Both the position numbers and the translations under genes were made by a program. A model generated the notes under the pieces. That model was given only the letters and a program-made list of their open reading frames with translations. It made no database searches and was not told the DNA's origin. From Paramesorhizobium salinisoli (GTDB lineage Bacteria; Pseudomonadota; Alphaproteobacteria; Rhizobiales; Rhizobiaceae), in the NCBI RefSeq assembly GCF_003335045.1, contig NZ_QOZG01000001.1, positions 62,001 to 126,000 on the forward strand: a DNA stretch of 64,000 nt, in the 5' to 3' direction. The number at the start of each line of letters is the position of its first letter. The stretch's first letter is position 1. Below are positions 47,244-62,850 of the stretch, piece by piece.

Positions 47244-48443
47244 CTATGGTGATGATGATAGCGAAATGCGTAGTTCAGGCTGTATGGACCAGAGCCCTGC
47301 CCGCGCCCCTTCGGTCACGAACAGCGCGACGTGGTAGATCAACCGGCTGAGCGCGTCGGGCCAGATCACGCCGCCGCGGCCATCCAGTTGATTGACCCAT
47401 CGGACCTGATCGGCAGCAAAGAACCGGCTGAAGATCAGCCTCTCCAATTCTTCGGCTCTTGCGGCGGCATGAACATCGCCCCTCAGATGAAGCGCACAGG
47501 CAAGTTTGCCCGCCTCCGTCAACGGCCAGAGAAGATGGGTATTTTCAATGACGCTGCCATCTGCCTTCAATGCATCGAAAAGCGCGCCGTCGAGCGGATC
47601 TCCCGTCCGGCGTATGCCGTGCCCATCGGCAAACGCGGTCATCCGGTCGGCCAGGGACCGGACGTCTTCATGGCCGCTCAGATCGGCATAACGATGCAGC
47701 AGCCACGCCCATTCATACTGATGTCCCGGCTCACGCCGCTGCCCTTCGGCCCCTTCAAGCGACGAGAGATCGTGACTCACGAATTCTCGAACGGAGCCGG
47801 TCGATCGGTCGATAAAATAGTCTTGCAACAATGAGATGTAGCGTGTCGCGCGCTCGAGCCATACGCTTTCGCCGGTCAATTCATAGGCTTGCAGGACCGC
47901 CTCGAGCATATGCATTTGAGGGTTTTGAGCACGGCGCTCGCCAGCCCGCGCACCGCTTCGAGCCATCTGGTCATCTTCGTATAGAGCGCCCGTCACCGGT
48001 TCCGTCAGCTCTTCTATGAAACGCCACAGCCCTTCAATGCGCCCCTCGGGCACAGCCTTGGGATCGGCCTTTTGCAACGTCACCAGAGCCAGAAGCGCAA
48101 AGGACTGGTCATAGGCGCGCCGCGTCCGACTTGCTGCGTCCTCCCGGAGGCTGCCGTCTGGATCAATGGCATAGCGATAGCCGCCCTCGGGATGGCGAAG
48201 ATGCGCATCCATGAAAGCATGAATTCTTCGAGCGGGGCCGAGAAGGGCTGAATTGCCTGTTTCCAGGCACAAATGTGCCAGGGAAAATACCGTCCGCGCA
48301 TGCACCAGTGTCGTCTTCGGCTCGCCGAAGACCGGCCTCCCCTCGCCATCGAGGCGCTCCACCAATCCACCCGCCTGTTGATCGGTGGCGAAGGCAATCC
48401 AGCGGGGCACGAAATCCATGGCGAACGCGGTAGCGGAGGTCAC
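47244..48443 (-). CDS. AGE-family sugar epimerase/isomerase
   Basis: A 399-residue alpha/alpha-barrel protein of the N-acylglucosamine 2-epimerase family, which includes mannose isomerases and cellobiose epimerases. Motifs: LVHARTVFSLAHLCLETGN, YDQSFALLALVTL, NPQMHMLEAVLQAYELTG and EPGHQYEWAWLLHRYAD; the two His residues in the last two blocks are the usual catalytic pair. The start is GTG at 48443, overlapping the gntR stop. Length and motifs favour a mannose/aldose isomerase over a true GlcNAc epimerase. With the TRAP genes downstream it probably processes an imported sugar or sugar acid. Confidence 0.85.
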   Translation of the reverse strand: MTSATAFAMDFVPRWIAFATDQQAGGLVERLDGEGRPVFGEPKTTLVHARTVFSLAHLCLETGNSALLGPARRIHAFMDAHLRHPEGGYRYAIDPDGSLREDAASRTRRAYDQSFALLALVTLQKADPKAVPEGRIEGLWRFIEELTEPVTGALYEDDQMARSGARAGERRAQNPQMHMLEAVLQAYELTGESVWLERATRYISLLQDYFIDRSTGSVREFVSHDLSSLEGAEGQRREPGHQYEWAWLLHRYADLSGHEDVRSLADRMTAFADGHGIRRTGDPLDGALFDALKADGSVIENTHLLWPLTEAGKLACALHLRGDVHAAARAEELERLIFSRFFAADQVRWVNQLDGRGGVIWPDALSRLIYHVALFVTEGARAGLWSIQPELRISLSSSP

Positions 48444-49162
48444 GTTGCAATCCCTCCGCGTGGCTCGAAGAAATCAGGAAGAGCTGCGGCCATGACAGGC
48501 AGATCATCGAGAATCTGGCGCAAATGCCCCCGCATGGCCGCTTCGGCGGCATCGGGATCGCGTTCGCGGATTGCCGAAACCACGTCGGCATGTTGCGTGA
48601 TAAGCCGGTCACGCGGAAAATGCCGCGCATTGAGGTAGCGCATGCGATCCATCTGCGTCTTCAACGGCTGAAGGATCTCCCAGCCGGGTCCCTGCCCGGC
48701 CGCTTCGGCAAGGCGGCGATGGAATTGCTCGTCGAGCGCCAGAAAGCCCTGGGGCTCCGGTCCTTCCGCCACCAGCCTTTGCTCATCGAGAAGACGTTCC
48801 AGATCATGGATCAGTTCATCGCTCGGCTGCGCCGCGACGAGCCGGACAATGTCTGCTTCCACCGCTTCTCGAACAAATCGCGCCGAGGTGACGGCATCGA
48901 TGCGGATACGGCTGACATAGGTTCCCCGCTGCGGCCTGATTTCCAGCAGCGATTCCTCGGCAAGCTTGATGAACGCCTCGCGTACAGGCTGCCTGCTGAC
49001 ACCGAAGACGTTTGCCAGATCTACCTCGGAAAGCCGCGCGCCGGGCAGCAATTCGCCCCGCAATATCCATTCGCGGATCGCATGCCATAGTTGGGGACCC
49101 ACAGCCTTTTCCAGATAGACATGGGGAGGCACGGGAAACGTGGTCGCAGTACGCACATGCAT
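48440..49162 (-). CDS. GntR family regulator, FadR/FCD subfamily
   Basis: A 240-residue repressor-type regulator. Winged helix at about residues 22-80 (WILRGELLPGARLSEVDLANVFGVSRQPVREAFIKLAEESLLEIRPQRGTYV). C-terminal FCD all-helical domain with the likely metal/ligand residues in ALDEQFHRRLAEAA, LITQHADVVSAI and AMRGHLRQI. First gene of the AGE/TRAP operon, whose next gene overlaps its stop, so the whole unit is probably autoregulated through the inverted repeat upstream and released by the transported substrate or a product of it. Confidence 0.9.
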   Translation of the reverse strand: MHVRTATTFPVPPHVYLEKAVGPQLWHAIREWILRGELLPGARLSEVDLANVFGVSRQPVREAFIKLAEESLLEIRPQRGTYVSRIRIDAVTSARFVREAVEADIVRLVAAQPSDELIHDLERLLDEQRLVAEGPEPQGFLALDEQFHRRLAEAAGQGPGWEILQPLKTQMDRMRYLNARHFPRDRLITQHADVVSAIRERDPDAAEAAMRGHLRQILDDLPVMAAALPDFFEPRGGIAT

Positions 49163-49524: not shown

Positions 49525-51723
49525 ATGTCGAATGTCGAAGAATTTCCGATATCGGGGCGAAAACTCAGTGAGACCAGTGAATATGAAGCGCTTGTAGCGG
49601 CGGCGCCCAGCGTCCTCGATGCCATTCCGGGCGCTGTATACCTCTGCGATCACGAAGGCTGGCTCGTTCGCTATAACAAGGAAGCTGCGAACTTTTGGGG
49701 TAGAACGCCGCTGCTTGGAGAAAAACCCGAGCGATTCTGCGGGTCCCATGCTCTTTTTCTGCCGGACGGCACGCCCTTGCCGCATGATATCTGCCCAATG
49801 GCCACGGCTGTTTTGTCCGGCGAAGAGACCCGGAACGCCGAGGTCATCATGGAAAGACCCGATAGTTCGCGCATCGTCGCCCTGGTGAATATCCGCGCCC
49901 TCAGAGACCGTGACGGGCGTATCCAGGGTGCAATAAACTGCTTCCAGGACATTTCTGCGCACAAGGCGATGGAAGACGAGGTGCGTCGCAAGAGCGCCGA
50001 CCTTGAAGATTTTTTTGAAAACAGTGCGATCGCCCTTCATATCGTCGGAGGTGACGGCATTATCCAGCGCGCGAACAAGGCTGAACTCGCTCTTCTCGGT
50101 TATACGGCCGAAGAATATGTCGGACGCCATATTGCCGAATTTCATACAGATGCACCGATCATTGGCGACATCCTTCACAAATTGTCGGGTGGGGAAAAGC
50201 TCGACCGCTATCCTGCCCGGCTTCGCGCCAGCGACGGCTCGATCAAACATGTGCTGATCACCTCCAACAGCCGCTTTGAAGACGGAGAGTTCATCAACAC
50301 ACGCTGCTTCACGACGGATGTAACCGAACTTTTCGAATCCGAAAGCGCGCGTCGCGACAGCGAGGAACGTCTGGCGGCGACCTATGAAGCGGCGACCATT
50401 GGAATTGCTGAAACAGACTCGGCTGGCCGCCTGCTGCGTGTAAACGATGCTCTGTGCCAAATGCTGGGCCGCTCTCGCCAGGAACTCCTCAGCATGACCT
50501 TCCTGGACTACACCCACGAGGACGACCGGGAGGAGGACGAAGCTCTCTATACACAGCAGACCCTCGGAGAACATGACAGCTATGTGCTGCGCAAGCGCGC
50601 GAGGAAGCCCGATGGAACGACAATTTATCTCGATATACGCAGTTCTTCCGTAAGGGACAACGCGGGCGGCTTCCGTTATGGGGTACGCGTAATACAGGAT
50701 GTCACCATCGCGAAGCAGATGGAGGATCAGATACGCTCCAGCGAACAGCATATGCGAGATTTGCTGGAAGCGCTGCCGGCAGCGGTTTATACCACGGATG
50801 CGGCAGGCCGGATCACCTTCTACAATAAAGCAGCCGTAGAAATGTCTGGACGGACGCCACAGCCTGGCGACATGTGGTGCGTGACATGGCGTCTGTTCAA
50901 TCCCGACGGCACCTCTCTGCCGCACGACCAATGCCCGATGGCGGTCGCGCTTAAGGAAAACCGCCCGGTTCGGGGCGCCGAGGCCATCGCGGAACGGCCG
51001 GACGGCACCCGCATTCCCTTCGTTCCCTATCCCACTCCGCTTCACGATGCCGGCGGCAATCTCATCGGCGCGATAAATATGCTCGTCGATATCACCGAGC
51101 AGAAGCAGGCCGAGAGCAGACAAAAGATTCTCATCGACGAGCTCAATCACCGGGTCAAGAACACTCTCGCAACCGTGCAATCGCTGGCGGGACAGACTGC
51201 CAGGCACGCTGCCGGTCTGGAGGACTTCCTGCGTAGCTTTGAATCGAGACTCATGGCGCTGGCGCGGGCCCATGATCTCTTGACCAAGCGGCATTGGGAT
51301 GACGCCCCTCTGGATTCGCTTGCCAGGGCGGTGCTGACACCGCTCGCCGCCAGTGAAGCGGTGAAGCGGATCATGATTGACGGACCATCGGTCGGCCTGA
51401 ATCCGCGGGCAGCGCTGAGCTTGACAATGGCTCTCAACGAGCTCGCAACCAACGCGATAAAATATGGATCGCTTTCATCGGAAAAAGGGTCGCTCGGCGT
51501 TGCCTGGCACCTGCAGGAGGAGGGCAACGATCAAGCTATGCTGATCCTTGAATGGCATGAACGTGGCGGTCCACTGGTTCGCCCCCCTACCCGGCGCGGG
51601 GTCGGTACCCGGCTGATGGAACGTTGCATTGAGCGCGATCTCGGGGGCGAGTTTGACCTCGCCTTTGAACCCGAAGGCGTATCCTGCCGCATATCAATCC
51701 CGGTTGGGCAGGTGAAGGCATGA
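49525..51723 (+). CDS. Four-PAS HWE-family sensor histidine kinase
   Basis: A 732-residue soluble kinase without membrane segments. Four PAS domains at about residues 25-145, 157-270, 285-400 and 410-530; the first and fourth are clearly related (both contain a PDGT-LPHD-CPMA core). The HWE dimerisation domain follows, with His542 in ELNHRVKNTLATVQSLAGQ, then the ATPase domain. The HWE hallmark W-x-E is present as Trp677-His-Glu679, but the N-box reads LNELATN with Asn638 where HWE kinases usually have His. HWE kinases often feed general stress or light/redox signalling. It overlaps the response regulator gene by four bases. Confidence 0.9.
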   Translation: MSNVEEFPISGRKLSETSEYEALVAAAPSVLDAIPGAVYLCDHEGWLVRYNKEAANFWGRTPLLGEKPERFCGSHALFLPDGTPLPHDICPMATAVLSGEETRNAEVIMERPDSSRIVALVNIRALRDRDGRIQGAINCFQDISAHKAMEDEVRRKSADLEDFFENSAIALHIVGGDGIIQRANKAELALLGYTAEEYVGRHIAEFHTDAPIIGDILHKLSGGEKLDRYPARLRASDGSIKHVLITSNSRFEDGEFINTRCFTTDVTELFESESARRDSEERLAATYEAATIGIAETDSAGRLLRVNDALCQMLGRSRQELLSMTFLDYTHEDDREEDEALYTQQTLGEHDSYVLRKRARKPDGTTIYLDIRSSSVRDNAGGFRYGVRVIQDVTIAKQMEDQIRSSEQHMRDLLEALPAAVYTTDAAGRITFYNKAAVEMSGRTPQPGDMWCVTWRLFNPDGTSLPHDQCPMAVALKENRPVRGAEAIAERPDGTRIPFVPYPTPLHDAGGNLIGAINMLVDITEQKQAESRQKILIDELNHRVKNTLATVQSLAGQTARHAAGLEDFLRSFESRLMALARAHDLLTKRHWDDAPLDSLARAVLTPLAASEAVKRIMIDGPSVGLNPRAALSLTMALNELATNAIKYGSLSSEKGSLGVAWHLQEEGNDQAMLILEWHERGGPLVRPPTRRGVGTRLMERCIERDLGGEFDLAFEPEGVSCRISIPVGQVKA

Positions 51724-52112
51724 GCGATCTTTCCGGCCTTAAGGTTCTCATCGTGGAGGACGAGGGTTTGGTCGCCCTCATGATAGAGGATATGCTGCAG
51801 GATCTCGGCTGCCAGATCGTAGCTTCGGTGTCCCAGTTGTCGGATGCGAAGGCAATCGCCGACACGATAGAGGTCGATATGGCGGTGCTGGACATCAACC
51901 TGGCTGGCCAGCCTAGTTTTCCTGTCGCGGAAATTCTCCGGGAACGGCAAATCCCTTTCGTATTCAGCACGGGATATGGTGCGAGTGGCCTGCCCACCGA
52001 ATTTGCCGGTAATCAGGTTCTGGGCAAGCCTTTTTCCGCGGAGGAGCTTGAACAGAAAGTCACGCTCACCTTGGCCTCAGGACGAGTTGGACATCGCGCG
52101 GGCACGATTTAA
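51720..52112 (+). CDS. Single-domain response regulator
   Basis: A 130-residue receiver domain without an output domain. KVLIVEDEGLVALMIEDML provides the acidic pair, MAVLDINLAGQ the phospho-acceptor Asp, and the conserved switch Thr/Ser and Lys lie in FSTGYG and LGKPFSAEELEQ. Its start overlaps the kinase stop (ATGA), so the two form a pair. Stand-alone receivers beside HWE kinases commonly act as phosphate sinks or adjust signalling to PhyR-type regulators; here that is inference. Confidence 0.9.
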   Translation: MSDLSGLKVLIVEDEGLVALMIEDMLQDLGCQIVASVSQLSDAKAIADTIEVDMAVLDINLAGQPSFPVAEILRERQIPFVFSTGYGASGLPTEFAGNQVLGKPFSAEELEQKVTLTLASGRVGHRAGTI

Positions 52113-52542
52113 TAAACGGCAAATGCTCCACCGTCTGAGAATAATGGAGCATTCACACAGCGCTTTGCAGGCATCGACATGCCCAGGCATCGTCGGATCG
52201 AAGGCAAGGCACTGTCCCCACGGCTGAACGGCACTATCTGGGTCTTTGGCATTCCGAGCATTGCCGCGGCTTGGCTTTCCTTTTCTTTCCATCGCCAAAA
52301 CCGGGCGCTTCGACAATGATGATCGAGGGTTGCGTTGCGGGTCGGATTGTGCCGGACGCCTTGCTCAGACCGCCAATATTCGGCGCCTGTATCTTCGCCT
52401 TTTGCAACATCCCATATACATAGCTGTCACTTGAATGACCGCTGAGTAGCGATTCCCGGTGGCTACCTAAGGCTGCTGCGGCGGTTTGACTTTTGTCACA
52501 CCCCGTGAATAATGTCTAAAATTGTCTCGACGAGGAACCAGA
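52113..52542. other. Gap without a recognisable gene
   Basis: 430 bases between the response regulator and the SorC-type gene. Only short open frames occur (at most about 80 codons, for example minus strand 52077-52316), none with a recognisable domain or ribosome site. Apart from the promoter near 52486 I see no feature; a decayed gene remnant is possible. Confidence 0.5.
52486..52514 (+). promoter_or_regulatory. Promoter and operator half-site of the SorC-type gene
   Basis: TTGACT (52486-52491) and ATAATG (52509-52514) are spaced 17 bases apart, about 30 bases before the start codon. TTGACTTTTG here matches the half-site TTGACATTTG of the operator at 57320-57346 at 9 of 10 bases, and TGAC-N4-GTCA overlaps it, suggesting autoregulation. 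Confidence 0.45.
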
Positions 52543-53505
52543 ATGCCAGTTCGGTCTACGGATCAGATCCTGCACAAAGCCGCATGGCTTTATTATACTC
52601 ATGGCTTAAGACAGGATGAAGTGGCCAAACAGCTTGGTATTTCTCGCGCATCCGTCGCCATGTATCTGCGCCGCGCCCGCGAGACCGGTATCGTCAGCAT
52701 ATCTACCTCGACACAGTTGTTCGCCGACGATGTGCTGGCGCGCGAACTGGAGGATACGACCGGCCTGGCTTCCGTATGGATCGTGCCCGAAGACCGGCAT
52801 GCGATGGATTCAGCGGCGGAAATGCCGGTCGTTGCGGCTGCGGTATTCCTCGAACTCATCAAGAAGGGCGACCGTATCGGCGTTGCCTGGGGGCGCACGG
52901 TCTATCATCTTGCTGACGTTCTGCCTTATGCGGATCTGCAGGGCGTCACGGTGATGCAGCTCTGTGGCAATCTCGGCGCACCCTACAATTACCGCCCGGA
53001 CCAATGCACCACCGAGATCGCGCGCCGTCTGAATGCGGAGGGGATCAACATCTATGCTCCCCTGGTGCTAGGTTCCGAGCGGCTGGCTGACGAACTGCGG
53101 GGCGAACCCGTCATCCGCGAACAGCTTGCGGCCATTTCAGATTGTCAGCTCGTCCTCTACTCGGTCGGCGGCTGCGAAAGCGACAGCCATCTGGTGCGCT
53201 GCGGCGCGCTGACCGCTGACGAAATGCATGCGCTGGGCAAAGCGGGCGCCGGCGGCGTCATTGCCGGCCAGATCATCGACAGGAATGGCCGCTGGATGGA
53301 CTGCGCCCACAACCGCCGCTGCATTTCGGCGGATCTCGACACCATTCGCACCATTCCCAAGCGCATGATGGTGGTGGAGGAGGATGCCAAATTCGAACCG
53401 CTGGTCGCCGCCATCAAGGGCGGCTTCGTATCGCATCTGGTGGTGACCACCTCAATGGCCCGGCGCCTGCTCTCCCGCTGGAATGAAGTGACCGACGCGG
53501 CCTAG
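52543..53505 (+). CDS. SorC/DeoR-type sugar-binding transcriptional regulator
   Basis: A 320-residue regulator. N-terminal helix-turn-helix (GLRQDEVAKQLGISRASVAMYLRRARETGIVSI, about residues 20-52), then the SorC sugar-phosphate-binding domain with RIGVAWGRTVYHLADVLPYADLQGVTVMQLCGNLGAPYNYRPDQ and GVIAGQIIDRNG. ATG at 52543 follows GAGGAA at correct spacing. SorC regulators respond to phosphorylated sugars. It converges with the ABC importer operon, and the operator between that operon and mtnK is its likely target, so the effector is probably an MtnK or MtnA product. Confidence 0.88.
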   Translation: MPVRSTDQILHKAAWLYYTHGLRQDEVAKQLGISRASVAMYLRRARETGIVSISTSTQLFADDVLARELEDTTGLASVWIVPEDRHAMDSAAEMPVVAAAVFLELIKKGDRIGVAWGRTVYHLADVLPYADLQGVTVMQLCGNLGAPYNYRPDQCTTEIARRLNAEGINIYAPLVLGSERLADELRGEPVIREQLAAISDCQLVLYSVGGCESDSHLVRCGALTADEMHALGKAGAGGVIAGQIIDRNGRWMDCAHNRRCISADLDTIRTIPKRMMVVEEDAKFEPLVAAIKGGFVSHLVVTTSMARRLLSRWNEVTDAA

Positions 53506-53570
53506 ACATGCCAATGTGACAACAGTAGGCGCCGGGAATATAGCAGCGACATTGCGGTCATCAGCATAAG

Positions 53571-53590
53571 GGGCGGCCCTCAGGCCGCCC
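53571..53590. terminator. Hairpin between the regulator and the importer operon
   Basis: GGGCGGCC (53571-53578) pairs exactly with GGCCGCCC (53583-53590) around CTCA, between two convergent stop codons. It is followed by AATTTG on the plus strand. Probably bidirectional. Confidence 0.6.
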
Positions 53591-53607
53591 AATTTGCCGG
53601 GATGCAC

Positions 53608-54660
53608 TCACTTGGCGTTCGGGTTCGGCATCCATGCAGGCATGGCGACGTCTGCATGGGCGAACTGCGGCAGCTTGGCGCCCAGTTCTTCCATGTTCTT
53701 GATGTCGCTGTCCATCAGGTCTTTCTGGGTGATCAGGGTCGGGGGAACGATGACATTGTGGCCCGGATCTTCGCCCGCCAGCAGCATGGCAAGCGTGCGG
53801 ACAGATACCTGGCCGACAACGGTCGGGTTGGTTGCGGCGGTTGCAACCCAGGCACTATCGGGCTCGCGCATGGCGGCGATGTCGGACGTCGATATGTCAG
53901 CGGAATAGATCTTGACGCTGCTCGACATGCCGGCTTCGTCCACGGCGATCTTCACACCCTTCGCGAACTCGTCGTAGGGCGCGAACATGACTGTGATGTC
54001 AGGGTTGGCCGAGATGACCGAACGGGCCTGGTTGGCGACAGAGTTTGCGATCGGGTTATCCATCGTGCCGAACTGGGCGACTTCGTTGATGCCCGGATAC
54101 TTCTTCTTGAATTCCTTCCACGTCTCATCGCGGCGGTCGAGCGGCGCGATACCGGCAACGTAGACATATCCGGCCTTGAAGCTCTCGCCATTGTCCTTGA
54201 TCGCCTGCTCCAGAGCCAGGCGGGCCAGATCACGATCTGACTGCTCGACCTGCGGAATCTGGTCATTCTCGACGTCGACGTCGAAGGCGACGACCTTGAT
54301 GCCCGCGTCGACAGCACGCTGGGCGGCTTCCTTCATGGATTCCTTCAAACCGTGCTGGATGATAATGCCCTGCACACCGAGCGCGATCGCCTGGTCGACC
54401 ATGTCGGCCTGCAGTGCTGCGTCCTGGCGGCTATCAAGTACGCGCAGGTCGACACCAAGGGCCTTCGCCTGGGCTTCGACGCCTGAGAGATAGGACTGGA
54501 AGAAATCGCCGGTCGAGAGATAACGAACCAGGGCGATCTTCACGTCGCCGGGTTTGTCGAACGGGGCCGGCATGTCGGCGGCGAAGGAAACGCCTCCGAA
54601 TGTCGAGGCGCCAATGAGGCCGAGGGTCAGTTTTCCGAGAATTCTACGCGTAATCGCCAT
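53608..54660 (-). CDS. Sugar ABC transporter substrate-binding protein
   Basis: A 350-residue periplasmic binding protein of the RbsB-like group. The signal peptide is residues 1-about 28, ending VSFAAD. The first lobe has KIALVRYLSTGDFFQSYLSGVEAQAKALGVDLRVLDSRQD, and the second has VMFAPYDEFAKGVKIAVDEAG. The pentose-type family fits import of ribose-like sugars; from the neighbouring mtnK and mtnA genes, 5-methylthioribose or 5-deoxyribose is the favoured ligand. Last gene of the importer operon, 55 bases after the permease. Confidence 0.88.
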   Translation of the reverse strand: MAITRRILGKLTLGLIGASTFGGVSFAADMPAPFDKPGDVKIALVRYLSTGDFFQSYLSGVEAQAKALGVDLRVLDSRQDAALQADMVDQAIALGVQGIIIQHGLKESMKEAAQRAVDAGIKVVAFDVDVENDQIPQVEQSDRDLARLALEQAIKDNGESFKAGYVYVAGIAPLDRRDETWKEFKKKYPGINEVAQFGTMDNPIANSVANQARSVISANPDITVMFAPYDEFAKGVKIAVDEAGMSSSVKIYSADISTSDIAAMREPDSAWVATAATNPTVVGQVSVRTLAMLLAGEDPGHNVIVPPTLITQKDLMDSDIKNMEELGAKLPQFAHADVAMPAWMPNPNAK

Positions 54661-54715
54661 TGGGGTTCCTCCATCATGTTGTTGTTTTAATTAGTTTCCT
54701 GCTTGGCCGAAGGTT

Positions 54716-55771
54716 CTATCTCCGCCTTTGCGAGAGGGCGAAGGTAAAGACGAGGGCAATGACCAGAACGCCGCCCTTGACGAAGTCCTGGGTATAATAG
54801 GGTGCGTTCATCATCGTCAGCCCCTGCAACAGGACACCGACGAACAGGGCTCCAATCGCGGTGCCGAAGGCATTCGGTTTGGCAGCGCCAAGAACTGCGA
54901 ACCCGATCAGCGCAGCGGCGACGGAATCGAGCAGCAAATTATTGCCCGAGGCGATGTCGCCGCGACCGAGACGAGCGGCGAGCAGGATGCCTCCGATCGA
55001 GGCAAAAACACCGGAGATGACGTAGGCGCTGATCTTGTAGGCATTGACCGGCGCGCCGGCGAGCTGGGCGGCACGCTCGTTGGAACCGACGGCATACATC
55101 ATCCTGCCGAAGCGGGTGTATTCAAGGAAAAACCAGATGACGATGGCAAGCAGGATCAACACCACGACCGATACCGGCACGAGGTTCGGCAGGACGAAAT
55201 CGAAGCGATGGCGGCCAAGCGCCAGGAAGGCCGGAGAAAAGGTGCCGCTGGCAACCGAACCGTCGGGCATGGTCATGCCTGTCGCGATCGAGCGACCCTC
55301 GGTGGGAATGCGCTGCAGACCAACGAGCAGGAACATCATGCCGAGCGTCGCCAGCAGATCCGGCACGCGCATGTAGACGATCAGGAAGCCGTTGATCAGA
55401 CCGACGACGACGCCGATCAGGATGCAAACCAGCATCGCGGTGAATGCATCGCCGCCCATGACGACCATGACGTAGGACGAAGCCATCATGGCCGTCGTCG
55501 CCACCGAGCCGATCGACAGGTCAAAACCGCCCACAACCAGCGTCGCGGTGACGCCAAGCGCCAGGATTCCGGTGATCGCTACCGACTGAAGGATAAAGAC
55601 GGCACTCTGCGGCGAGGCAAAGCCATTGGTGAAGGCACAGAAAAACAGGATAAGGCCGAGCAACAGCACCAGGAAGCCGTATTTGATCGCCAGTTCGCGG
55701 ATCGTCAGCTTGTGGACCGGATGTGGGGCTCCGGTCGCAGCGTTAAGGGTCTTCGTCTGTTCCAGGTTCAT
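54716..55771 (-). CDS. Sugar ABC transporter permease
   Basis: A 351-residue RbsC-type permease with about eight to ten membrane segments, including SVAITGILALGVTATLVVGGFDLSIGSVATTAMM, the conserved BPD_transp_2 block, and SVAAALIGFAVLGAAKPNAFGTAIGALFVGVLLQGLTMM. One permease gene only, so a homodimer is expected. Its start directly abuts the stop of the ATPase gene. Confidence 0.9.
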   Translation of the reverse strand: MNLEQTKTLNAATGAPHPVHKLTIRELAIKYGFLVLLLGLILFFCAFTNGFASPQSAVFILQSVAITGILALGVTATLVVGGFDLSIGSVATTAMMASSYVMVVMGGDAFTAMLVCILIGVVVGLINGFLIVYMRVPDLLATLGMMFLLVGLQRIPTEGRSIATGMTMPDGSVASGTFSPAFLALGRHRFDFVLPNLVPVSVVVLILLAIVIWFFLEYTRFGRMMYAVGSNERAAQLAGAPVNAYKISAYVISGVFASIGGILLAARLGRGDIASGNNLLLDSVAAALIGFAVLGAAKPNAFGTAIGALFVGVLLQGLTMMNAPYYTQDFVKGGVLVIALVFTFALSQRRR

Positions 55772-57280
55772 TCAACCAACCATTTGATGTTGACCGGCAA
55801 TTTCGGCCAGAAGCTTGTCCACATTGATATCGGCATTGCGATGTTCGCCGACGAGCGTGTGTTCGGACATCACCAGGATACGGTCGGCGATCTCAAATGC
55901 CTCATCGAGTTCGGTCACGAAGACCAGTGTCGCCCTGCCGATCGCCGAGGCGCGCAGCTTGGCCGCAAGATCGCGCCGCGCCGAGATATCGACCCCCTGG
56001 AACGGTTCGTCGAGGATCAGCACGCGCGAGGCCTGCGTCAGCCATCGGCCGACCATGACCTTCTGCTGGTTGCCGCCGGACAGCGTGCTCATCTCGTCGC
56101 GTTCGCTGCGGCAGACGACGCCCAGCGAGGCGATCTGTGTGCGTGCAAGGTCACGCTCGCTGCGGCGGCTGGTAATACCGAAATTCGAAATCCGCTTGAG
56201 AAACGGCAGGCTGATATTCTCGTAGATGTTGAAGCCCGGCACGATGCCGTTCTCGCCGCGATCTTTGGCGACGAGGAAAACACCGCGCTCGATGGCCTGG
56301 CGTGTTGACCTGGGCGCGTAATCCGCGCCATCGAGCGTCATGCCGCCGCTGACGGGCGCGCGGACGCCAAACAGGGTCTCGGCAAGCGCTGTCTTGCCGA
56401 CGCCGACAAGACCTGTGATAGCCACGACTTCCCCACCGCCGAGCGTCAGCGAGAACGGACGCGACGTAGGGGTGAGTTGCAGGTTTGCGGCATGGAGAAC
56501 GGGGGCTGTGGCGGCGCGTACGCTGATGTCGCCGGCGCTGATCTTCTTGCCGAGCATGGCATTGACGGCACCCTCGTAATCCAGGGGCTGGTCTTCGAAG
56601 ATGCCGGAGATGCGACCGTCACGGAGGCTGACGATGGTATCGGCGAGCCGGCGAATGTCCGACATGCGGTGTGATATATAGAGAATGGCAACACCGCGGG
56701 CGCGCAACCGCTCGACGACCTGGAAGAGCCGCTCGGCCTCCGCGCTCGACAGCGAGGACGTCGGCTCGTCGAGGATAAGCACCTTCGGCTCATGCGCCAT
56801 CGCACGGGCGATCGCCACCATCTGGCGGTCGGCGAGCGAAAGATCGCTGATCCGGGCAGTCAGATCGATAGACAGGCCCATGCGGGCGGCGACCGCCGCA
56901 GCTTCGCGGCGAACGCGGCGAGGATTGAAGACCAGCGGCGCGCCCCTGCCGTTCAAGCGGTCGAGCGTCAGATTGGTGGCGACATCGAGATCGGCGACGA
57001 CGCCATCATTGATGTTCTGGTGCACGGTGACAACGCCGGCGCGAATGGCTTCGGCAGGCGAAGACGGCGAAAAGACCTGTCCGGCGAGCGTGATGCGCCC
57101 GGCGTCGCGATCATAGACGCCGCTGACTATGCGAACGAGCGTGGATTTGCCCGCACCATTGGCCCCCATCAGCACAGTGATGACGCCGGCGCGCAATTCC
57201 AGATCGACCCCACCCAGAACCTGGTTCGGCCCGAACGACTTGCGCAAGCCCTCGATACGGAAAACCGCCTCTTGCACCAT
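55772..57280 (-). CDS. Sugar ABC transporter ATP-binding protein
   Basis: A 502-residue RbsA-type ATPase with two fused nucleotide-binding domains. The N-terminal half has Walker A MGANGAGKSTLVRIVSG, signature ISDLSLADRQMVAIARAMAHEP and Walker B VLILDEPTSSL. The C-terminal half has a degenerate Walker A, ITGLVGVGKTALAETLFG, with signature LSGGNQQKVMVGRWL and VLILDEPFQGVD. First gene of the importer operon, divergent from mtnK across the palindromic operator. Confidence 0.92.
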   Translation of the reverse strand: MVQEAVFRIEGLRKSFGPNQVLGGVDLELRAGVITVLMGANGAGKSTLVRIVSGVYDRDAGRITLAGQVFSPSSPAEAIRAGVVTVHQNINDGVVADLDVATNLTLDRLNGRGAPLVFNPRRVRREAAAVAARMGLSIDLTARISDLSLADRQMVAIARAMAHEPKVLILDEPTSSLSSAEAERLFQVVERLRARGVAILYISHRMSDIRRLADTIVSLRDGRISGIFEDQPLDYEGAVNAMLGKKISAGDISVRAATAPVLHAANLQLTPTSRPFSLTLGGGEVVAITGLVGVGKTALAETLFGVRAPVSGGMTLDGADYAPRSTRQAIERGVFLVAKDRGENGIVPGFNIYENISLPFLKRISNFGITSRRSERDLARTQIASLGVVCRSERDEMSTLSGGNQQKVMVGRWLTQASRVLILDEPFQGVDISARRDLAAKLRASAIGRATLVFVTELDEAFEIADRILVMSEHTLVGEHRNADINVDKLLAEIAGQHQMVG

Positions 57281-57319
57281 ATGCTCCTCCCTCGACGATC
57301 ATGCTAGGACGGCGTATCG

Positions 57320-57346
57320 TCAAATGTCAAGTCCATTGACATTTGA
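57320..57346. promoter_or_regulatory. Operator with mirrored divergent promoters
   Basis: TCAAATGTCAA (57320-57330) and TTGACATTTGA (57336-57346) are exact reverse complements around GTCCA. Each arm contains an outward-pointing TTGACA: plus strand at 57336-57341 for mtnK, minus strand at 57330-57325 for the ABC operon. Both are followed after 17 bases by weak -10 hexamers (CTACGA, CTAGCA). Binding by one SorC-type dimer or tetramer would block both promoters at once. Confidence 0.75.
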
Positions 57347-57428
57347 TAGAATGCTGTCCTACGAAAAGGATGAGAGGGGTGGTGGCGATACGAATTGCCA
57401 CCGTTTGGGAAGGGAGGAACTACCAGCC

Positions 57429-58691
57429 ATGACCGTATTCGAGGCATTGAATTCCCAGACGCTTCCTCTGCGCCTTGGCGGCACTGCAGCCATTCTGGAC
57501 CGCGTCGGCGTTGACACGTCCGCCTGGAAAATCCGCGAGGTTGGCGACGGCAATCTCAACCTGGTTTTCATCGTTGACGGGACGAAAGGAAGCGTCGTCG
57601 TCAAGCAGGCGCTGCCTTATGTGAGGCTGGTCGGCGAAAGCTGGCCGCTGCCGCTGAAGCGCTCTTATTTCGAATATCAAGCTCTGGTGCGCCAGCAGGA
57701 GCGTGATCCCGGGATGGTGCCGGAAATCCTGCATTTCGACCGCGAGCAGGCGATCATCGTCATGGAATTCCTGACCCCGCACATCATCCTGCGCAAGGCG
57801 CTGATCGAAGGCCAGCAACTACCGCGTATCGCCCGCGATCTCGGTCTTTTCACCGCCCGCACCCTCTTCCGCGGTTCTGATCTTTCGATGGAGACGCGCA
57901 AGCGCAAGGAAGACCTCGCTTTGTTTTCCGACAATGTCGAGCTCTGCGACATCACCGAAAACCTGGTTTTTTCCGATCCCTATTACGAAGCTACCCTCAA
58001 TCGCCACACGACGCCGCAACTTGACGGCATCGTCAGGGAACTGCGCGCCGACCGCGATTTGAAGGTGGAAGCGCAGCGCCTCAAGCATCTATTCGCCTCC
58101 AATGCCGAAACCTTGCTGCACGGCGATCTTCACACCGGCTCCGTCATGGTCACGCCTGAAGAAACCAGGGTGATCGACCCGGAATTTGCCTTCTACGGGC
58201 CCATGGCTTTCGATGTGGGGATGCTGCTCGCCAATTTCTGGATGAGCTATTTCTCGCAAGCAGGCCATGAGAAGGACGGCGACCGCGCGGATATGCGCGA
58301 TTATCTTCTCGATGTCGTCGTCGGCATCTGGGATACATTCCGAGACGAGTTTTCCCGGCTGTGGCACACCGAACGCAACGGCATTCTCTACCAGAGGACA
58401 CTTTTCGAGGATCGCGGCGATGCGCTGGGATCGACGCAGGCGCTCGACGAGGTGCTGCAGTCGATCTGGACCGACATGCTCGGCTTCGCCGGTGTCGAGA
58501 TGCATCGCCGCATCCTTGGCCTCGCCCACAATGCCGATTTCGAAACCATTGAAGATGCCGATCTGCGCGCCCGCTGCGAAGCCAAGGCGCTCAAGCTCGG
58601 CCGACACCTGGCTGTAAACCGGCGCAAAATCCACAGCATGGCGGAGATCAATGCGCTCGCCGGACGGCTCGAAAAGGAGATAGTTGCTTGA
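57429..58691 (+). CDS. mtnK: 5-methylthioribose kinase
   Basis: A 420-residue kinase with the protein-kinase/APH-like fold that phosphorylates C1 of 5-methylthioribose (and possibly 5-deoxyribose). Start blocks [29 protein letters not shown] and [15 protein letters not shown] are specific to MtnK. Catalytic loop [12 protein letters not shown] with Asp233, then [17 protein letters not shown] with the metal-binding Asp-Pro-Glu. ATG at 57429 is preceded by GGGAGGAA; the longer upstream open frame is only read-through. First gene of the operon; overlaps mtnA by four bases. Confidence 0.92.
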
Positions 58692-59782
58692 AAGTCGGAG
58701 AACGCCACTACCATACGATCTGGCTGAACGAGGACGGACGCTCGATCGACATCATCGACCAGCGATGGCTTCCGCATGAATTCCGCATTGTCACGCTGAA
58801 GACCGTCGACGACGTCGCGGTCGCGATCCGCGACATGTGGGTTCGCGGCGCACCGCTGATCGGCGTCACTGCCGCTTACGGCGTCGCTATCGCCATGACA
58901 TCGGACGCCAGCGACGAAGCGCTCGACAAGGTCTGGGAGGTGCTGCACGAAACACGCCCGACAGCCATCAACCTGCGCTGGGCGCTGGATGCCATGCGGG
59001 GATTTCTGCGCAAGCTTCCGGTTTCCGAGCGCGTTGAAGCGGCTTACGGGAAGGCCGCTGAGATCGCCGAGGAAGACATCGCGCTTAACCGCAGCATCGG
59101 CGCTGCGGGCCTTGAGGTGATCCGCGAGATCGCTTCCCGCAAGAAGCCGGGCGAGCCGGTCAATATCCTCACCCACTGCAATGCCGGGTGGCTTGCGACC
59201 GTCGACTACGGCACGGCGACCGCGCCGATCTATATGGCGGTCGAAGAGGGCATCAAGGTGCATGTCTATGTCGACGAGACCAGACCGCGCAACCAGGGCG
59301 CTCAGCTCACTGCCTGGGAGATGAATGGCCACGGCGTGCCGCATACGCTTATCGTCGACAATGCCGGCGGTCATCTGATGCAGCATGGCGATGTCGATAT
59401 GGTGATCGTGGGCACCGACCGTACGACGGCCAATGGCGACGTCTGCAACAAGATCGGCACCTATCTGAAGGCGCTCGCCGCCAAGGACAATGACGTGCCC
59501 TTCTATGTCGCCCTGCCCTCGCCGACGATCGACTGGACCGTGCATGACGGCATTAAAGAGATCCCCATCGAAGAACGCAACAGTGACGAAGTGACCTTCG
59601 TTCAGGGACGCACTGTCGATGGCTCGATTTCGACCGTGCGTGTTTCGCCGGAAGGAAGCCCTGCCGCCAACCCCGCCTTCGACGTGACGCCGGCGCGGCT
59701 GATCACCGGCCTGATTACCGAGCGCGGCATCGCCACGGCATCGCCCGAAGGCCTCAAAGCCCTGTTTCCAGAACGGACCTGA
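58688..59782 (+). CDS. mtnA: S-methyl-5-thioribose-1-phosphate isomerase
   Basis: A 364-residue aldose-ketose isomerase converting methylthioribose 1-phosphate to methylthioribulose 1-phosphate. Family blocks: [15 protein letters not shown] (phosphate site), [18 protein letters not shown] with catalytic Cys164, [20 protein letters not shown] and [19 protein letters not shown] with catalytic Asp244. It is related to eIF2B subunits, but the active-site pair identifies the metabolic enzyme. Start is TTG, overlapping the mtnK stop (TTGA); no suitable ATG lies nearby. Confidence 0.92.
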
Positions 59783-59787
59783 CAACC

Positions 59788-60723
59788 ATGACCCTTTCCA
59801 ACCAGCAGAAGACGGAGGACGTCGCCGCGGGCATCCGCAAGCGTGTTTTCCTGCACACGATGCGTAACAATGGTGGTTATCTGAGCCAGGCCTGTTCAGC
59901 AGCGGAAAGCCTCGCCTTCCTCTACAACGAAGCATTGAAGCTGGGCGAACCGACGCTGCCGAAAGTGCCGCTGCCCTTTTCCGGGGTGCCATCGGCGAGC
60001 AATCCGGACGCCTTTACCGGAGCCGGATATCACGGGCCATTCGCACCGGAATATGACCGCTTCATCATCTCGCCGGCGCATTACGCACTGGTGATCTATT
60101 CGGCGCTGATCCAGATGGGCCGCATGGACGAGCACGCGCTCGACCACTTCAATCGCGATGGCGGCTCTGTCGAGATGATCGGCGCAGAGCACAGCCCCGG
60201 CATGGAAGTAACCACCGGTTCGCTGGCGCAAGGTCTGTCCATGGCATCGGGCATTGCCTGGGCACGCAAGCGCAAGGATGAACAGGGCCTGGTCTGGGTC
60301 TACATGTCGGACGGCGAATTCCAGGAGGGCCAGACCTGGGAGTGCCTGGCGGCGATGGCCTATCACGGCATCGACAACATCCGCGTCGTGGTCGATGTCA
60401 ATCGCCAGCAATGCGATGGCGCCATGTCGTCCGTTCTCGATCTGGGCGATCTGCCGGCGCGCGTCTCAAGCTTTGGCGTCACCTGCCGCTCTATCGACGG
60501 CCACGACCTCGACGCCTTTCGCAAAGCCGCCGACAGCACGGAAGCTGGCAAGCCGCTGATCATCCTCGCCAACACCTCGCCCTATCAGGGCATGGAATTC
60601 CTGAAAAAGCGCTTCCCGCGTCTGCACTATGTCCGCTTCAAATCCGCCGAGGAGCGCCAGGAAATGCAGAGCGCCATTGCCGCCGAGCTTCGCATCGACG
60701 AAGCCGAAATCGCGAGGATCTAA
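59788..60723 (+). CDS. Transketolase-like protein, N-terminal (thiamine diphosphate-binding) subunit
   Basis: A 311-residue protein equivalent to the PP domain of transketolase. The thiamine diphosphate motif is YMSDGEFQEGQTWECLAAMAYHGIDNIRVVVDVNRQQCDG; SPAHYALVIYSALIQMG and EHSPGMEVTTGSLAQGLSMASGIAWARK match transketolase (substrate His and cofactor contacts). It must pair with the following gene product. Not a normal pentose-phosphate transketolase, which is one chain of about 660 residues. It starts 5 bases after mtnA, so it likely acts on the product of that pathway. Confidence 0.88.
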   Translation: MTLSNQQKTEDVAAGIRKRVFLHTMRNNGGYLSQACSAAESLAFLYNEALKLGEPTLPKVPLPFSGVPSASNPDAFTGAGYHGPFAPEYDRFIISPAHYALVIYSALIQMGRMDEHALDHFNRDGGSVEMIGAEHSPGMEVTTGSLAQGLSMASGIAWARKRKDEQGLVWVYMSDGEFQEGQTWECLAAMAYHGIDNIRVVVDVNRQQCDGAMSSVLDLGDLPARVSSFGVTCRSIDGHDLDAFRKAADSTEAGKPLIILANTSPYQGMEFLKKRFPRLHYVRFKSAEERQEMQSAIAAELRIDEAEIARI

Positions 60724-60724
60724 C

Positions 60725-61726
60725 ATGGTAGAGATCGTCAACCGTCCTTACGCCAAGGCGTTCGAGACCTTTGCCACGGCGCGCCCGGAAGTGCTCTGCC
60801 TTTCGGCCGACCTGACCTCGTCCTGCGAAATTGATGGCTTTCGCGATCGCCACCCCGACCAATTCCTGTCGCTCGGCATGGCGGAGCAGAACATGCTCTC
60901 CTTTGCCGGCGGGCTTGCCATGCAGGGGTTTCGACCGTTCCTGCATACATTCTCGGTCTTCCTCTATCGCCGCCCCTATGACCAGCTCATCAATTCGATT
61001 GCCTATTCCAACCGCAAGGTGCGGCTGATGGGCTTCCTGCCGGGCATCACCACGCCGGGCGGCATCACCCACCAGGCGATCGAGGACATTTCGGTGATGC
61101 GGGCCATTCCGAACATGACGATCCTCGAATGCGGCGACGCGACCGAGGTCGAAACAGTACTCGAAGTCGCCGACAGCATCGACGGCCCGGTTTATGTCCG
61201 TGTGTTGCGCGGCGAGGTCCCGCGGCTGTTTTCGACACCGTTCGAATTCAACAAGCTCCGGACGCTGAGCGAAGGCGATGACGTTCTCGTTGTCACCTCA
61301 GGCGTATGCACGGAAGAAGCGCTGCGCGCCGCGGAGCCTTTGAAAAACCGCGGCATCGGCATCCATCATTTGCATGTCTCGACGCTGAAGCCCTTCGACC
61401 GCGATGGCCTGATCAGGGTGGCGCGCGGCAAGAAAGGCGTCGTGACGCTCGAAAACCATACGATCAATGGCGGCCTCGGTTCGCTTGTCGCGGAAATCCT
61501 TGCCGAAGAGGGTCTCGGCGTGAAACTGCGTCGTCTCGGACTGCAGGACACCTTCGCGCATGGCGCCTCGAAGCCTTACCTCATGAAGAAATATGGGCTC
61601 GACGCCAGCGCACTCGTTGCCGCCATCGGCGACGTGCTCGGCAAGACGCTCGATATCCCGGATGCGGAACTGGAGGCGGTGCGTCTCGACACCGTGCACT
61701 CGGCCCAGAAGGCGGAGGCGCTCTGA
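60725..61726 (+). CDS. Transketolase-like protein, C-terminal (pyrimidine-binding) subunit
   Basis: A 333-residue partner of the previous gene: Pyr domain with the catalytic Glu in LGMAEQNMLSFAGGLAMQGFRPFLHTFSVFLYRR, and the C-terminal transketolase domain (VVTSGVCTEEALRAAEPLKNRGIGIHHLHVSTLKPFD, then VTLENHTINGGLGSLVAEILAEEGLG). The last block resembles the DXP synthase/transketolase C-domain. ATG at 60725 is one base after the previous stop. It overlaps the RLP start by one base (TGATG). Confidence 0.88.
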   Translation: MVEIVNRPYAKAFETFATARPEVLCLSADLTSSCEIDGFRDRHPDQFLSLGMAEQNMLSFAGGLAMQGFRPFLHTFSVFLYRRPYDQLINSIAYSNRKVRLMGFLPGITTPGGITHQAIEDISVMRAIPNMTILECGDATEVETVLEVADSIDGPVYVRVLRGEVPRLFSTPFEFNKLRTLSEGDDVLVVTSGVCTEEALRAAEPLKNRGIGIHHLHVSTLKPFDRDGLIRVARGKKGVVTLENHTINGGLGSLVAEILAEEGLGVKLRRLGLQDTFAHGASKPYLMKKYGLDASALVAAIGDVLGKTLDIPDAELEAVRLDTVHSAQKAEAL

Positions 61727-62850
61727 TGGCCCGGTTTTCGGTCACCTACTGGATCGGTGCCGCCGACGAGCAGGAGGCCCGCGCCCGTGCGCTGGATATC
61801 GCTCTGGAGCAGACGGTTGAAATTCCCCGGGATGCCGTTCCCGCCGGCTATGTCGAGGACGAAATCCTTGGGCATCTGGAAAGGCTCGAGCCGGCCCTCG
61901 ATGGCCGTAGCGGCTTTGTCGCCGAAATTTCCTACAGCGATGACGATATCGGCGGCGATTTCCTGCAGCTGCTGAACATCATTTTCGGCAATTCCTCGAT
62001 CAAAACGAATATTCGCGTTGAGGATATTTCACTGTCGGAAGGGATCCTCAACCTGTGCTCCGGTCCGCGCTTCGGCATGCCGGGCCTGCGCGAGCGCACC
62101 GGCGTCGCCAAGGGACCGATCCTGATGTCGGCGATCAAGCCTGTCGGCCTTTCTGCGCAGGAACTGGGCAGGCTGGCGCATGATTTTGCGCTGGGCGGCA
62201 TGGATCTGGTCAAGGACGATCATGGTCTTGTCGATCAACGCACATCACCCTTCGTCGATCGGCTGAAAGCTTGTGTCGACGGTGTAGGCGAAGCCAATGC
62301 CAAGACCGGCGGCCGGACCGCCTATGTGGCCAACATCACCGGCCCGGCAACACAGATATTCGACCGCGCCTGGATGGCCAAGGAAAAGGGCGCCGGCGGC
62401 GTCATGGTGGCGCCGGCGCTGGCTGGCTATGACGTGACCCGCGCGCTTGCTGCCGATCCGGAATTCAATCTGCCGATCGTGTCGCATCCGACCTTCGCTG
62501 GACCCAACATGATCACGCCGACCACGGGTTTCTCGCATCGCTTCTATTTCGGCCTTCTGCAGCGCCTGATGGGGGTCGATGTGGTGGTGTACCCGAATTT
62601 CGGCGGCCGTTTCGGCTTTACGCTGGCGGAATGCCAGTCGATCGTGCGCGGCGCGCAGATGGAGTTCGGCGGCTACAAACCGGTCGTTCCCGCGCCGGGT
62701 GGCGGCATGACCTTCGAGCGCATACCGGAAATGCAGGCAGCTTACGGCGAGCGTGTCATGTATCTGGTCGGCGGCGCGCTGATCCGGGAGAAGGCCAATC
62801 TCACCAACGCCAGCAAACGGCTCGTAGCGGCGGTCCGCGGAAACGCCTAG
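61726..62850 (+). CDS. RuBisCO-like protein (form IV)
   Basis: A 374-residue RuBisCO large-chain homologue, shorter than true RuBisCO (about 460-480). Conserved are Lys138 in SAIKPVGLS (RuBisCO Lys175), Lys163 in LVKDDHG (carbamylated Lys201) and Asp165 (metal-binding Asp203). His166 replaces metal-binding Glu204, and loop 6 lacks the CO2-polarising Lys (NFGGRFGFT, Arg295). The phosphate site is PAPGGGM. It should not fix CO2. Known RLP reactions include methylthioribulose-1-phosphate isomerisation and reactions on apionate intermediates; the neighbours favour the former. The KDDHG and PAPGGGM pattern recalls the latter group, so substrate remains open. Confidence 0.9.
   Translation: MARFSVTYWIGAADEQEARARALDIALEQTVEIPRDAVPAGYVEDEILGHLERLEPALDGRSGFVAEISYSDDDIGGDFLQLLNIIFGNSSIKTNIRVEDISLSEGILNLCSGPRFGMPGLRERTGVAKGPILMSAIKPVGLSAQELGRLAHDFALGGMDLVKDDHGLVDQRTSPFVDRLKACVDGVGEANAKTGGRTAYVANITGPATQIFDRAWMAKEKGAGGVMVAPALAGYDVTRALAADPEFNLPIVSHPTFAGPNMITPTTGFSHRFYFGLLQRLMGVDVVVYPNFGGRFGFTLAECQSIVRGAQMEFGGYKPVVPAPGGGMTFERIPEMQAAYGERVMYLVGGALIREKANLTNASKRLVAAVRGNA

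Follow-up and report, generated by a model that had tools for sequence, protein, structure and literature searches.

A candidate methylthioribose degradation operon in Paramesorhizobium salinisoli, with a RuBisCO-like isomerase and a split transketolase that may act in series

What does an operon do that joins mtnK and mtnA to the two halves of a transketolase and to a RuBisCO-like protein (RLP)? The question is raised by a 64,000-nucleotide stretch of DNA (the window) from Paramesorhizobium salinisoli, whose draft genome has 5.05 Mb and whose named kin are Rhizobium and relatives. Nine genes at the end of the window encode a SorC-type regulator, a sugar ATP-binding cassette (ABC) importer on the minus strand and, on the plus strand, mtnK-mtnA-tkN-tkC-RLP, tkN and tkC being the transketolase halves. 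This arrangement, with the importer divergent from the plus-strand genes and the regulator next to it, had been described in an earlier, sequence-only reading of the window, and we find every gene present and open, with Pfam and NCBIfam assignments consistent with the gene names. The ends of the five plus-strand genes overlap or almost touch, and mtnA begins with a TTG start codon that overlaps the stop of mtnK. We think it rather probable, on the comparisons set out below, that this is an operon for the uptake and degradation of 5-methylthioribose (MTR), with a RuBisCO-like isomerase and a split transketolase working in series. 5-Deoxyribose is probably used as well.

In the proposed pathway, MTR would enter through the ABC importer and be phosphorylated by MtnK to MTR 1-phosphate, which MtnA would convert into 5-methylthioribulose 1-phosphate, both steps being suggested by strong orthology. 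The RLP, judging from its characterised relatives, would then shift the carbonyl along the chain by 1,3-isomerisation, giving 1-methylthio-D-xylulose 5-phosphate. The tkN-tkC enzyme would cleave this ketose between C2 and C3 on thiamine diphosphate, yielding glyceraldehyde 3-phosphate and a two-carbon unit bearing the methylthio group, which would then be released or transferred. The overall scheme would be a catabolic RLP-transketolase shunt. Among the literature matches listed, no paper joins RLP, transketolase and mtnK/mtnA, and the route from RLP to split transketolase is apparently undescribed.

We compared this locus with those of other genomes, the sets used (394 genomes of the Rhizobium family and others of 385 and 398) being samples from larger groups. 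An RLP of this kind occurs in 46 of the 394 family genomes, 30 at an identity of at least 61% (host included) and 16 at 41-49%, and a tkC of the same clade (at least 65% identity) in 49. The co-occurrence of the two half-transketolases with the RLP, which the sequence-only reading had proposed to check, is found in 45 of the 46 RLP genomes. The exception, Shinella zoogloeoides (G273, NZ_CP086612), carries an RLP fragment only; its locus (L067), with a shortened RLP and no transketolase, mtnK or mtnA within 20 kb, looks like a decaying copy. The phylum sample gave four weak matches to the RLP search (G778, G990, G1083 and G1108; E values 1.7e-49 to 5.5e-41).

Gene neighbourhoods were counted in 48 loci, taken from each of the 45 RLP genomes besides the host and, once two duplicates among five had been removed, from named genomes (three loci). 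Loci L005 and L007, which share their contigs with L039 and L065, and L084-L091, which represent the other RLP or the host's own genome, were left out of these counts. The loci are stretches of up to about 20-27 kb, so that genes near their edges are undercounted. Both tkN and tkC are found in 44 of the 48 loci, no more than 60 bases from the RLP in all 44 and with tkC abutting it; homologous loci lacking the transketolase genes, which had been named as grounds for abandoning the proposal, are accordingly few. Also frequent are mtnA (44/48), mtnK (43/48) and the periplasmic sugar-binding protein of the importer (43/48), and the SorC-type regulators have identities of 73-85% in near and 34-74% in distant relatives. 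Several missing genes trace to short contigs, to locus edges or to the RLP fragment; real differences are the lack of the kinase in L080 and of an adjoining importer in L077, and the position of the transketolase pair on a separate contig in G173, G233 and G327. Because the set is retained while RLP identity falls from 88 to 40%, and in rearranged orders that differ between near and distant groups, it is kept together far beyond chance.

The RLP itself indicates which reaction might follow MtnA. Both in sequence and in fold (model with a predicted local distance difference test score, pLDDT, of 93.2), the solved structure closest to it is 3qfw, an RLP of Rhodopseudomonas palustris that is listed separately from rlp2 of that species (2qyg) and that we infer to be RLP1. 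The available excerpt of one study describes R. palustris RLP1 as a methylthioribulose-1-phosphate 1,3-isomerase yielding 1-methylthioxylulose 5-phosphate and 1-methylthioribulose 5-phosphate (PMC5893883). A tree of 77 RLPs, from which L116 (broken frame), L067 (fragment), L004, L006 and L008 were left out, contains a transketolase-linked clade of 54 rows, 51 with an adjoining transketolase (support 97/92), and as its neighbour a weakly supported cupin-linked clade (82/38) of 16 rows, 15 with a cupin. Both kinds keep the Lys/Lys/Asp set of RuBisCO, and both have His at the position of RuBisCO E204 (50/51 transketolase-linked and 15/15 cupin-linked rows) and Arg at that of K334 (all 66 rows); RuBisCO, MtnW and the other RLP of the host are without these two changes. 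In this comparison E204, K334 and the Lys/Lys/Asp residues have the roles that we presume for them in the RuBisCO active site. Since the two groups share the active-site set and the His/Arg changes, they likely share the same proton-transfer chemistry. Closeness to 3qfw, the neighbouring clade and the active site fit the RLP1 (DeepYkr) group, and the tree and the active site both favour the isoprenoid-shunt-type isomerase that had been suggested for this gene.

Other RLPs degrade sugars by a different chemistry. D-Apiose breakdown, reportedly described by Carter in 2018, is said to use the split transketolase AptA/AptB and the RLP OiaX, so that both enzyme kinds of our locus recur there, and one may ask if this RLP acts as a decarboxylase or oxygenase of the apionate or hamamelose type, in an operon that degrades a branched sugar. 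RLPs of that type are also described, in the excerpts available, from relatives of rhizobia, namely Agrobacterium radiobacter (PMC6302742) and Ochrobactrum (PMC8914248). Nevertheless, the chance of this is close to negligible: the RLP scores 69.4 bits against the NCBIfam OiaX model, whose cut-off is 700, its active site has His/Arg and not Glu/Lys, Pfam and NCBIfam recognise no branched-sugar enzyme among the nine genes, and MtnK and MtnA seem ill-suited to a branched sugar. On the score and the active-site residues we rejected an apionate/OiaX-type RLP, an outcome that the sequence-only reading had listed against itself. Two other loci differ around the RLP. On a Vibrio nigripulchritudo plasmid (L096, 7995-12614), a distant RLP (34% identical) without the diagnostic His stands with tkN-tkC, an FGGY kinase and a carbohydrate ABC importer, which replace mtnK-mtnA, and this locus likely serves a different substrate. 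In L094 (14163-15170), a protein of 336 residues that matches nothing in Pfam or NCBIfam at E 0.001 directly follows the RLP.

The gene next to the RLP bears most directly on what consumes its product. For R. palustris, the product of RLP1 (RPA2169) is described, in the excerpt cited above, as consumed by the cupin RPA2170, which has the adjacent number (PMC5893883). Of 19 RLP loci in other families, 14 have a cupin adjoining the RLP, four have tkN-tkC and one ends with its contig at the RLP; in addition, the cupin is found on a Terrarubrum plasmid, and the transketolase on plasmids of Mariluticola, Ponticoccus and Vibrio. Cupin and transketolase stand together in no locus examined. At the level of whole genomes, 65 with the RLP divide into 14 with the cupin, 49 with the transketolase, two with neither and none with both. 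The cupin occurs in 14 of the 15 genomes with a cupin-clade RLP, the fifteenth (G620) having a contig end, and in none of the 50 others at E 1e-5; the transketolase clade (at least 58% identity) occurs in 49 of these 50 and in none of the 15, where the best transketolase match reaches 41%. A search of the host draft genome found no cupin partner (best E 0.23). Since the transketolase stands where the cupin, the consumer of the RLP1 product, otherwise stands, its position is best explained if it is an alternative consumer of 1-methylthioxylulose 5-phosphate, in agreement with the earlier suggestion that it acts on the RLP product.

This places the operon beside the 5'-methylthioadenosine (MTA)-isoprenoid shunt of Rhodospirillum rubrum and R. 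palustris (MtnP-MtnA-RLP1-cupin), with which it has in common MtnA, an RLP that agrees in fold, in closest solved sequence and in diagnostic residues, and the expected RLP product. It differs in the split transketolase in the cupin slot, and in that free sugar would be imported and phosphorylated by MtnK, whereas the shunt uses phosphorolysis by MtnP. The common MtnA step and RLP type would also suit an isoprenoid shunt with another sulfur-removing enzyme, in which the transketolase only helps to make 1-deoxyxylulose 5-phosphate (DXP) for isoprenoids and the operon serves salvage, not growth. We regard this as very unlikely, given that the dedicated ABC importer, the SorC-type regulator and the aldolase/dehydrogenase in many relatives' clusters (see below) look catabolic; moreover, we know of no transketolase chemistry that removes methanethiol without C-C cleavage.

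The adjacent tkN and tkC halves carry the thiamine-diphosphate motif and the catalytic Glu, and their nearest solved chains, 6yak and 6yaj, are the N- and C-terminal halves of the split transketolase of Carboxydothermus hydrogenoformans. All 19 split transketolases compared keep the catalytic Glu, the diphosphate motif, H66, H261, H473 and R520 (Escherichia coli TktA numbering). The enzyme of the window differs from TktA at four positions, and across the 19 compared H26 is replaced by Tyr and D469 by Gly in 19/19, H100 by Met in 17 and Leu in two, and H461 by Phe in 18; the ordinary transketolase of the host retains the usual residues. In ordinary transketolases, we take H100 and D469 to contact the donor C1 hydroxyl and substrate hydroxyls, and the changes at these positions make a C1-altered donor possible. 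We also suggest, tentatively and with the odds well against it, that the split transketolase is a new C-S-cleaving thiamine enzyme: methanethiol would be expelled from the two-carbon unit, much as phosphoketolase expels water, leaving acetyl-thiamine diphosphate, and from it acetate or acetyl phosphate, besides glyceraldehyde 3-phosphate.

Transketolases of this clade are also found away from the RLP. In a tkC tree of 63 sequences (L004, L006, L008 and L116 left out), seven of 11 that do not adjoin an RLP (L105-L111) nest in the RLP-linked clade, the enclosing group having support 100/98; the genomes of L105-L107 have an RLP at another place, L112 and L113 are placed next to L096 and L146, which are RLP-linked, and L114 and L115 fall outside. 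Near five of the seven (L107-L111) lie a BisC-like S/N-oxide reductase and a XylB-like kinase, and near three (L107, L108 and L111) an AraD-like 4-epimerase. BisC-, XylB- and AraD-like genes also accompany the transketolase on plasmids of Marinovum algicola (L173), with a taurine/sulfonate-type transporter and an arylsulfatase, and of Paracoccus seriniphilus (L174), with a sulfatase; no RLP is annotated in the fetched stretches of either. XylB-like and AraD-like enzymes would supply a D-xylulose 5-phosphate skeleton by another way, which fits the same transketolase substrate, and L108-L111, L173 and L174 perhaps represent another pathway for sulfur-bearing pentose compounds.

The same neighbourhoods, with clade members that occur without an RLP, some beside XylB-like and AraD-like enzymes, could be taken to mean that the transketolase acts elsewhere, for example on imported or internal 7-deoxysedoheptulose or another ketose, and merely shares a regulon with the RLP. 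A promiscuous transketolase is indeed reported, in the excerpt available, to join 5-deoxyribose to a two-carbon unit (PMC8102628). We consider this explanation decidedly unlikely, in view of the adjacency of tkN-tkC and RLP in the large majority of loci and of the cupin slot that the transketolase occupies.

As to the imported compound, the sugar-binding protein has as its nearest solved relative by sequence 4ry8 (227 bits, the next being 134), with 116 of 318 aligned residues identical, and its AlphaFold2 model (mean pLDDT 86.9) gives 4ry8 as the top Foldseek match (37% identity, template modelling (TM) scores 0.84/0.91). The entry, from Thermotoga lettingae, is titled 5-methylthioribose transporter solute-binding protein, the ligand being assigned from this title. 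Since it is the best match both by sequence and by fold, it points to methylthioribose as the imported compound. Together with the orthodox MtnK and MtnA, which exceed their curated cut-offs widely, it supports the class of 5-modified pentoses that the sequence-only reading had put forward.

Within this class, 5-deoxyribose (from 5'-deoxyadenosine) might be the main substrate, in which case the RLP would make DXP and the transketolase would split it, in a DXP-synthase-like reaction, into glyceraldehyde 3-phosphate and a unit at the level of acetaldehyde. Known MtnK-type kinases take both sugars: in the excerpts available, DrdK accepts methylthioribose and 5-deoxyribose and not ribose (PMC6079011), and an E. 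coli MtnK favours 5-deoxyribose tenfold (PMC10986504). In addition, tkC resembles DXP synthase (TIGR00204, 178 bits, under the cut-off of 466), a FucU-type mutarotase occurs in 9/48 loci, and an amidohydrolase resembling MTA/5'-deoxyadenosine deaminases occurs in 3/48, under the cut-offs for these (321 bits against 522 for the 5'-deoxyadenosine deaminase model). We judge 5-deoxyribose possible but on balance unlikely as the main substrate, given the title of 4ry8 and several hints of sulfur, namely the BisC-like reductase in L080 and L094, the taurine/sulfonate-type transporter in L173 and the sulfatases in L173 and L174. The BisC-like enzyme cannot decide between methylthio and deoxy compounds and is a mere hint, found in one of the 48 loci (L080) and in L094, and its L111 representative scores 821 bits, under the model cut-off of 1018. 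A purine nucleoside phosphorylase is present in 4/48 loci, the one scanned exceeding the cut-offs of PRK08202 and TIGR01700. L080 and L094 (a Ponticoccus plasmid) both carry such a phosphorylase, L094 additionally with an amidohydrolase of the above type, and mtnK was not found in the fetched stretches of either, a pattern to be expected with a 5-modified ribose 1-phosphate as entry compound.

The neighbourhoods also revealed a branch that had been missed. The sequence-only reading had stated that neither a cupin nor an aldolase partner is at the locus; this holds for the window, which has no class II aldolase in the locus, and not for its relatives, whose clusters often hold a class II aldolase/short-chain dehydrogenase fusion (24/48 loci at more than 60% identity, 32/49 by looser clustering), mostly beside sorC. 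The fusion scores 1143 bits against NF006192 (cut-off 639) and could cleave the same ketose 1-phosphate to dihydroxyacetone phosphate (DHAP) and an aldehyde. An aldolase branch and an RLP branch are described as running side by side in R. palustris (PMC5893883, in excerpt). The nearest fusion of the host is a 50% identical copy elsewhere in the genome, which may act after MtnA; within the locus, the RLP and the transketolase are the only enzymes downstream of MtnA. Canonical methionine salvage was set aside: neither MtnB nor MTA phosphorylase was found over the cut-off in the host genome, MtnC, MtnD and MtnN not having been searched. With the DHAP shunt (MtnK-MtnA-Ald2; DrdK-DrdI-DrdA), the operon has in common MtnK, MtnA, a sugar importer and sometimes a mutarotase, and by analogy the growth substrates may be 5-modified pentoses; the shunt's aldolase is absent from the window locus, while many relatives carry the fusion next to the RLP-transketolase branch.

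Several observations weigh against a joint action of RLP and transketolase on methylthioribose. The exclusion of cupin and transketolase divides along the two RLP clades and thus amounts to about one evolutionary event, not many, and the identification of these cupins as methylsulfurylases rests on their position beside the RLP. Four of the 49 family genomes with the transketolase lack the RLP (G208, G353, G317 and G085), so that the transketolase need not be tied to the RLP product. The changed transketolase residues are common to all 19 split enzymes, RLP-linked or not, and were therefore set aside as proof of a C1-modified donor; furthermore, L105 and L106 have none of the BisC-, XylB- and AraD-like neighbours. 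The RLP is also the least conserved and fastest-diverging enzyme of the operon, the distant group having median identities to the window of 45% for RLP (16 loci), 68% for tkC (13) and 76% for the sugar-binding protein (13). Finally, no enzyme for the released two-carbon unit is found in the window locus.

Table 1. The nine genes at the end of the window, with their positions and the matches on which the names are based.
Feature	Position	Strand	Matches
sorC, SorC/DeoR-type sugar-responsive transcriptional regulator	52522..53505	+	PF04198, 160 bits
Periplasmic sugar-binding protein, probably 5-methylthioribose-binding	53608..54660	-	PF13407; 4ry8 nearest
ABC importer permease, RbsC/AraH type	54716..55771	-	PF02653, 141 bits
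ABC importer ATPase, two ATP-binding domains, RbsA/AraG type	55772..57280	-	PF00005, two stretches
mtnK	57429..58691	+	TIGR01767, 502 bits (cut-off 275); solved kin 2pyw, 2olc
mtnA, 5-methylthioribose-1-phosphate isomerase	58688..59782	+	TIGR00512, 446 bits (cut-off 279); solved kin 1t9k
tkN, N-terminal (diphosphate-binding) half of split transketolase	59788..60723	+	PF00456; nearest solved chain 6yak, 100 bits
tkC, C-terminal half of split transketolase	60725..61726	+	PF02779, PF02780; nearest solved chain 6yaj, 211 bits
RLP, clade next to cupin-linked RLPs	61726..62850	+	PF00016; nearest solved structure 3qfw

The importer ATPase reaches 386 bits against NF008442, under its cut-off of 689. 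Elsewhere in the host genome (G000) there are a probable true RuBisCO on contig C3 (496565-497488, 459 bits), with a transketolase reading frame nearby (L084), and the second RLP on contig C6 (272475-273317; L085). Upstream of the locus, the window holds an N-acetylglucosamine 2-epimerase-family gene (47244-49162, PF07221), with an overlapping adjacent frame that looks like a GntR-type regulator, and, at 49525-52112, a large frame resembling a PAS sensor histidine kinase and, after it, what looks like a single receiver domain.

If the proposed pathway is correct, the fates of 5-methylthioribulose 1-phosphate in methionine salvage, the isoprenoid shunt and the DHAP shunt would be joined by another, and the product of the isoprenoid-shunt RLPs would have a second consumer. 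The two-clade pattern, in which one kind of RLP is followed by either a cupin or a transketolase, opens the claim to a direct test with purified enzymes. The pathway would give a likely function to an RLP clade of rhizobia and their relatives, and bacteria with the operon are predicted to grow on sugars that other bacteria or they themselves excrete as waste. Should methanethiol be freed, the operon would be a soil source of volatile sulfur, and if the split transketolase itself expels it, alphaproteobacteria of soil and sea would draw central metabolites from a sulfur-bearing waste sugar and give off volatile sulfur.

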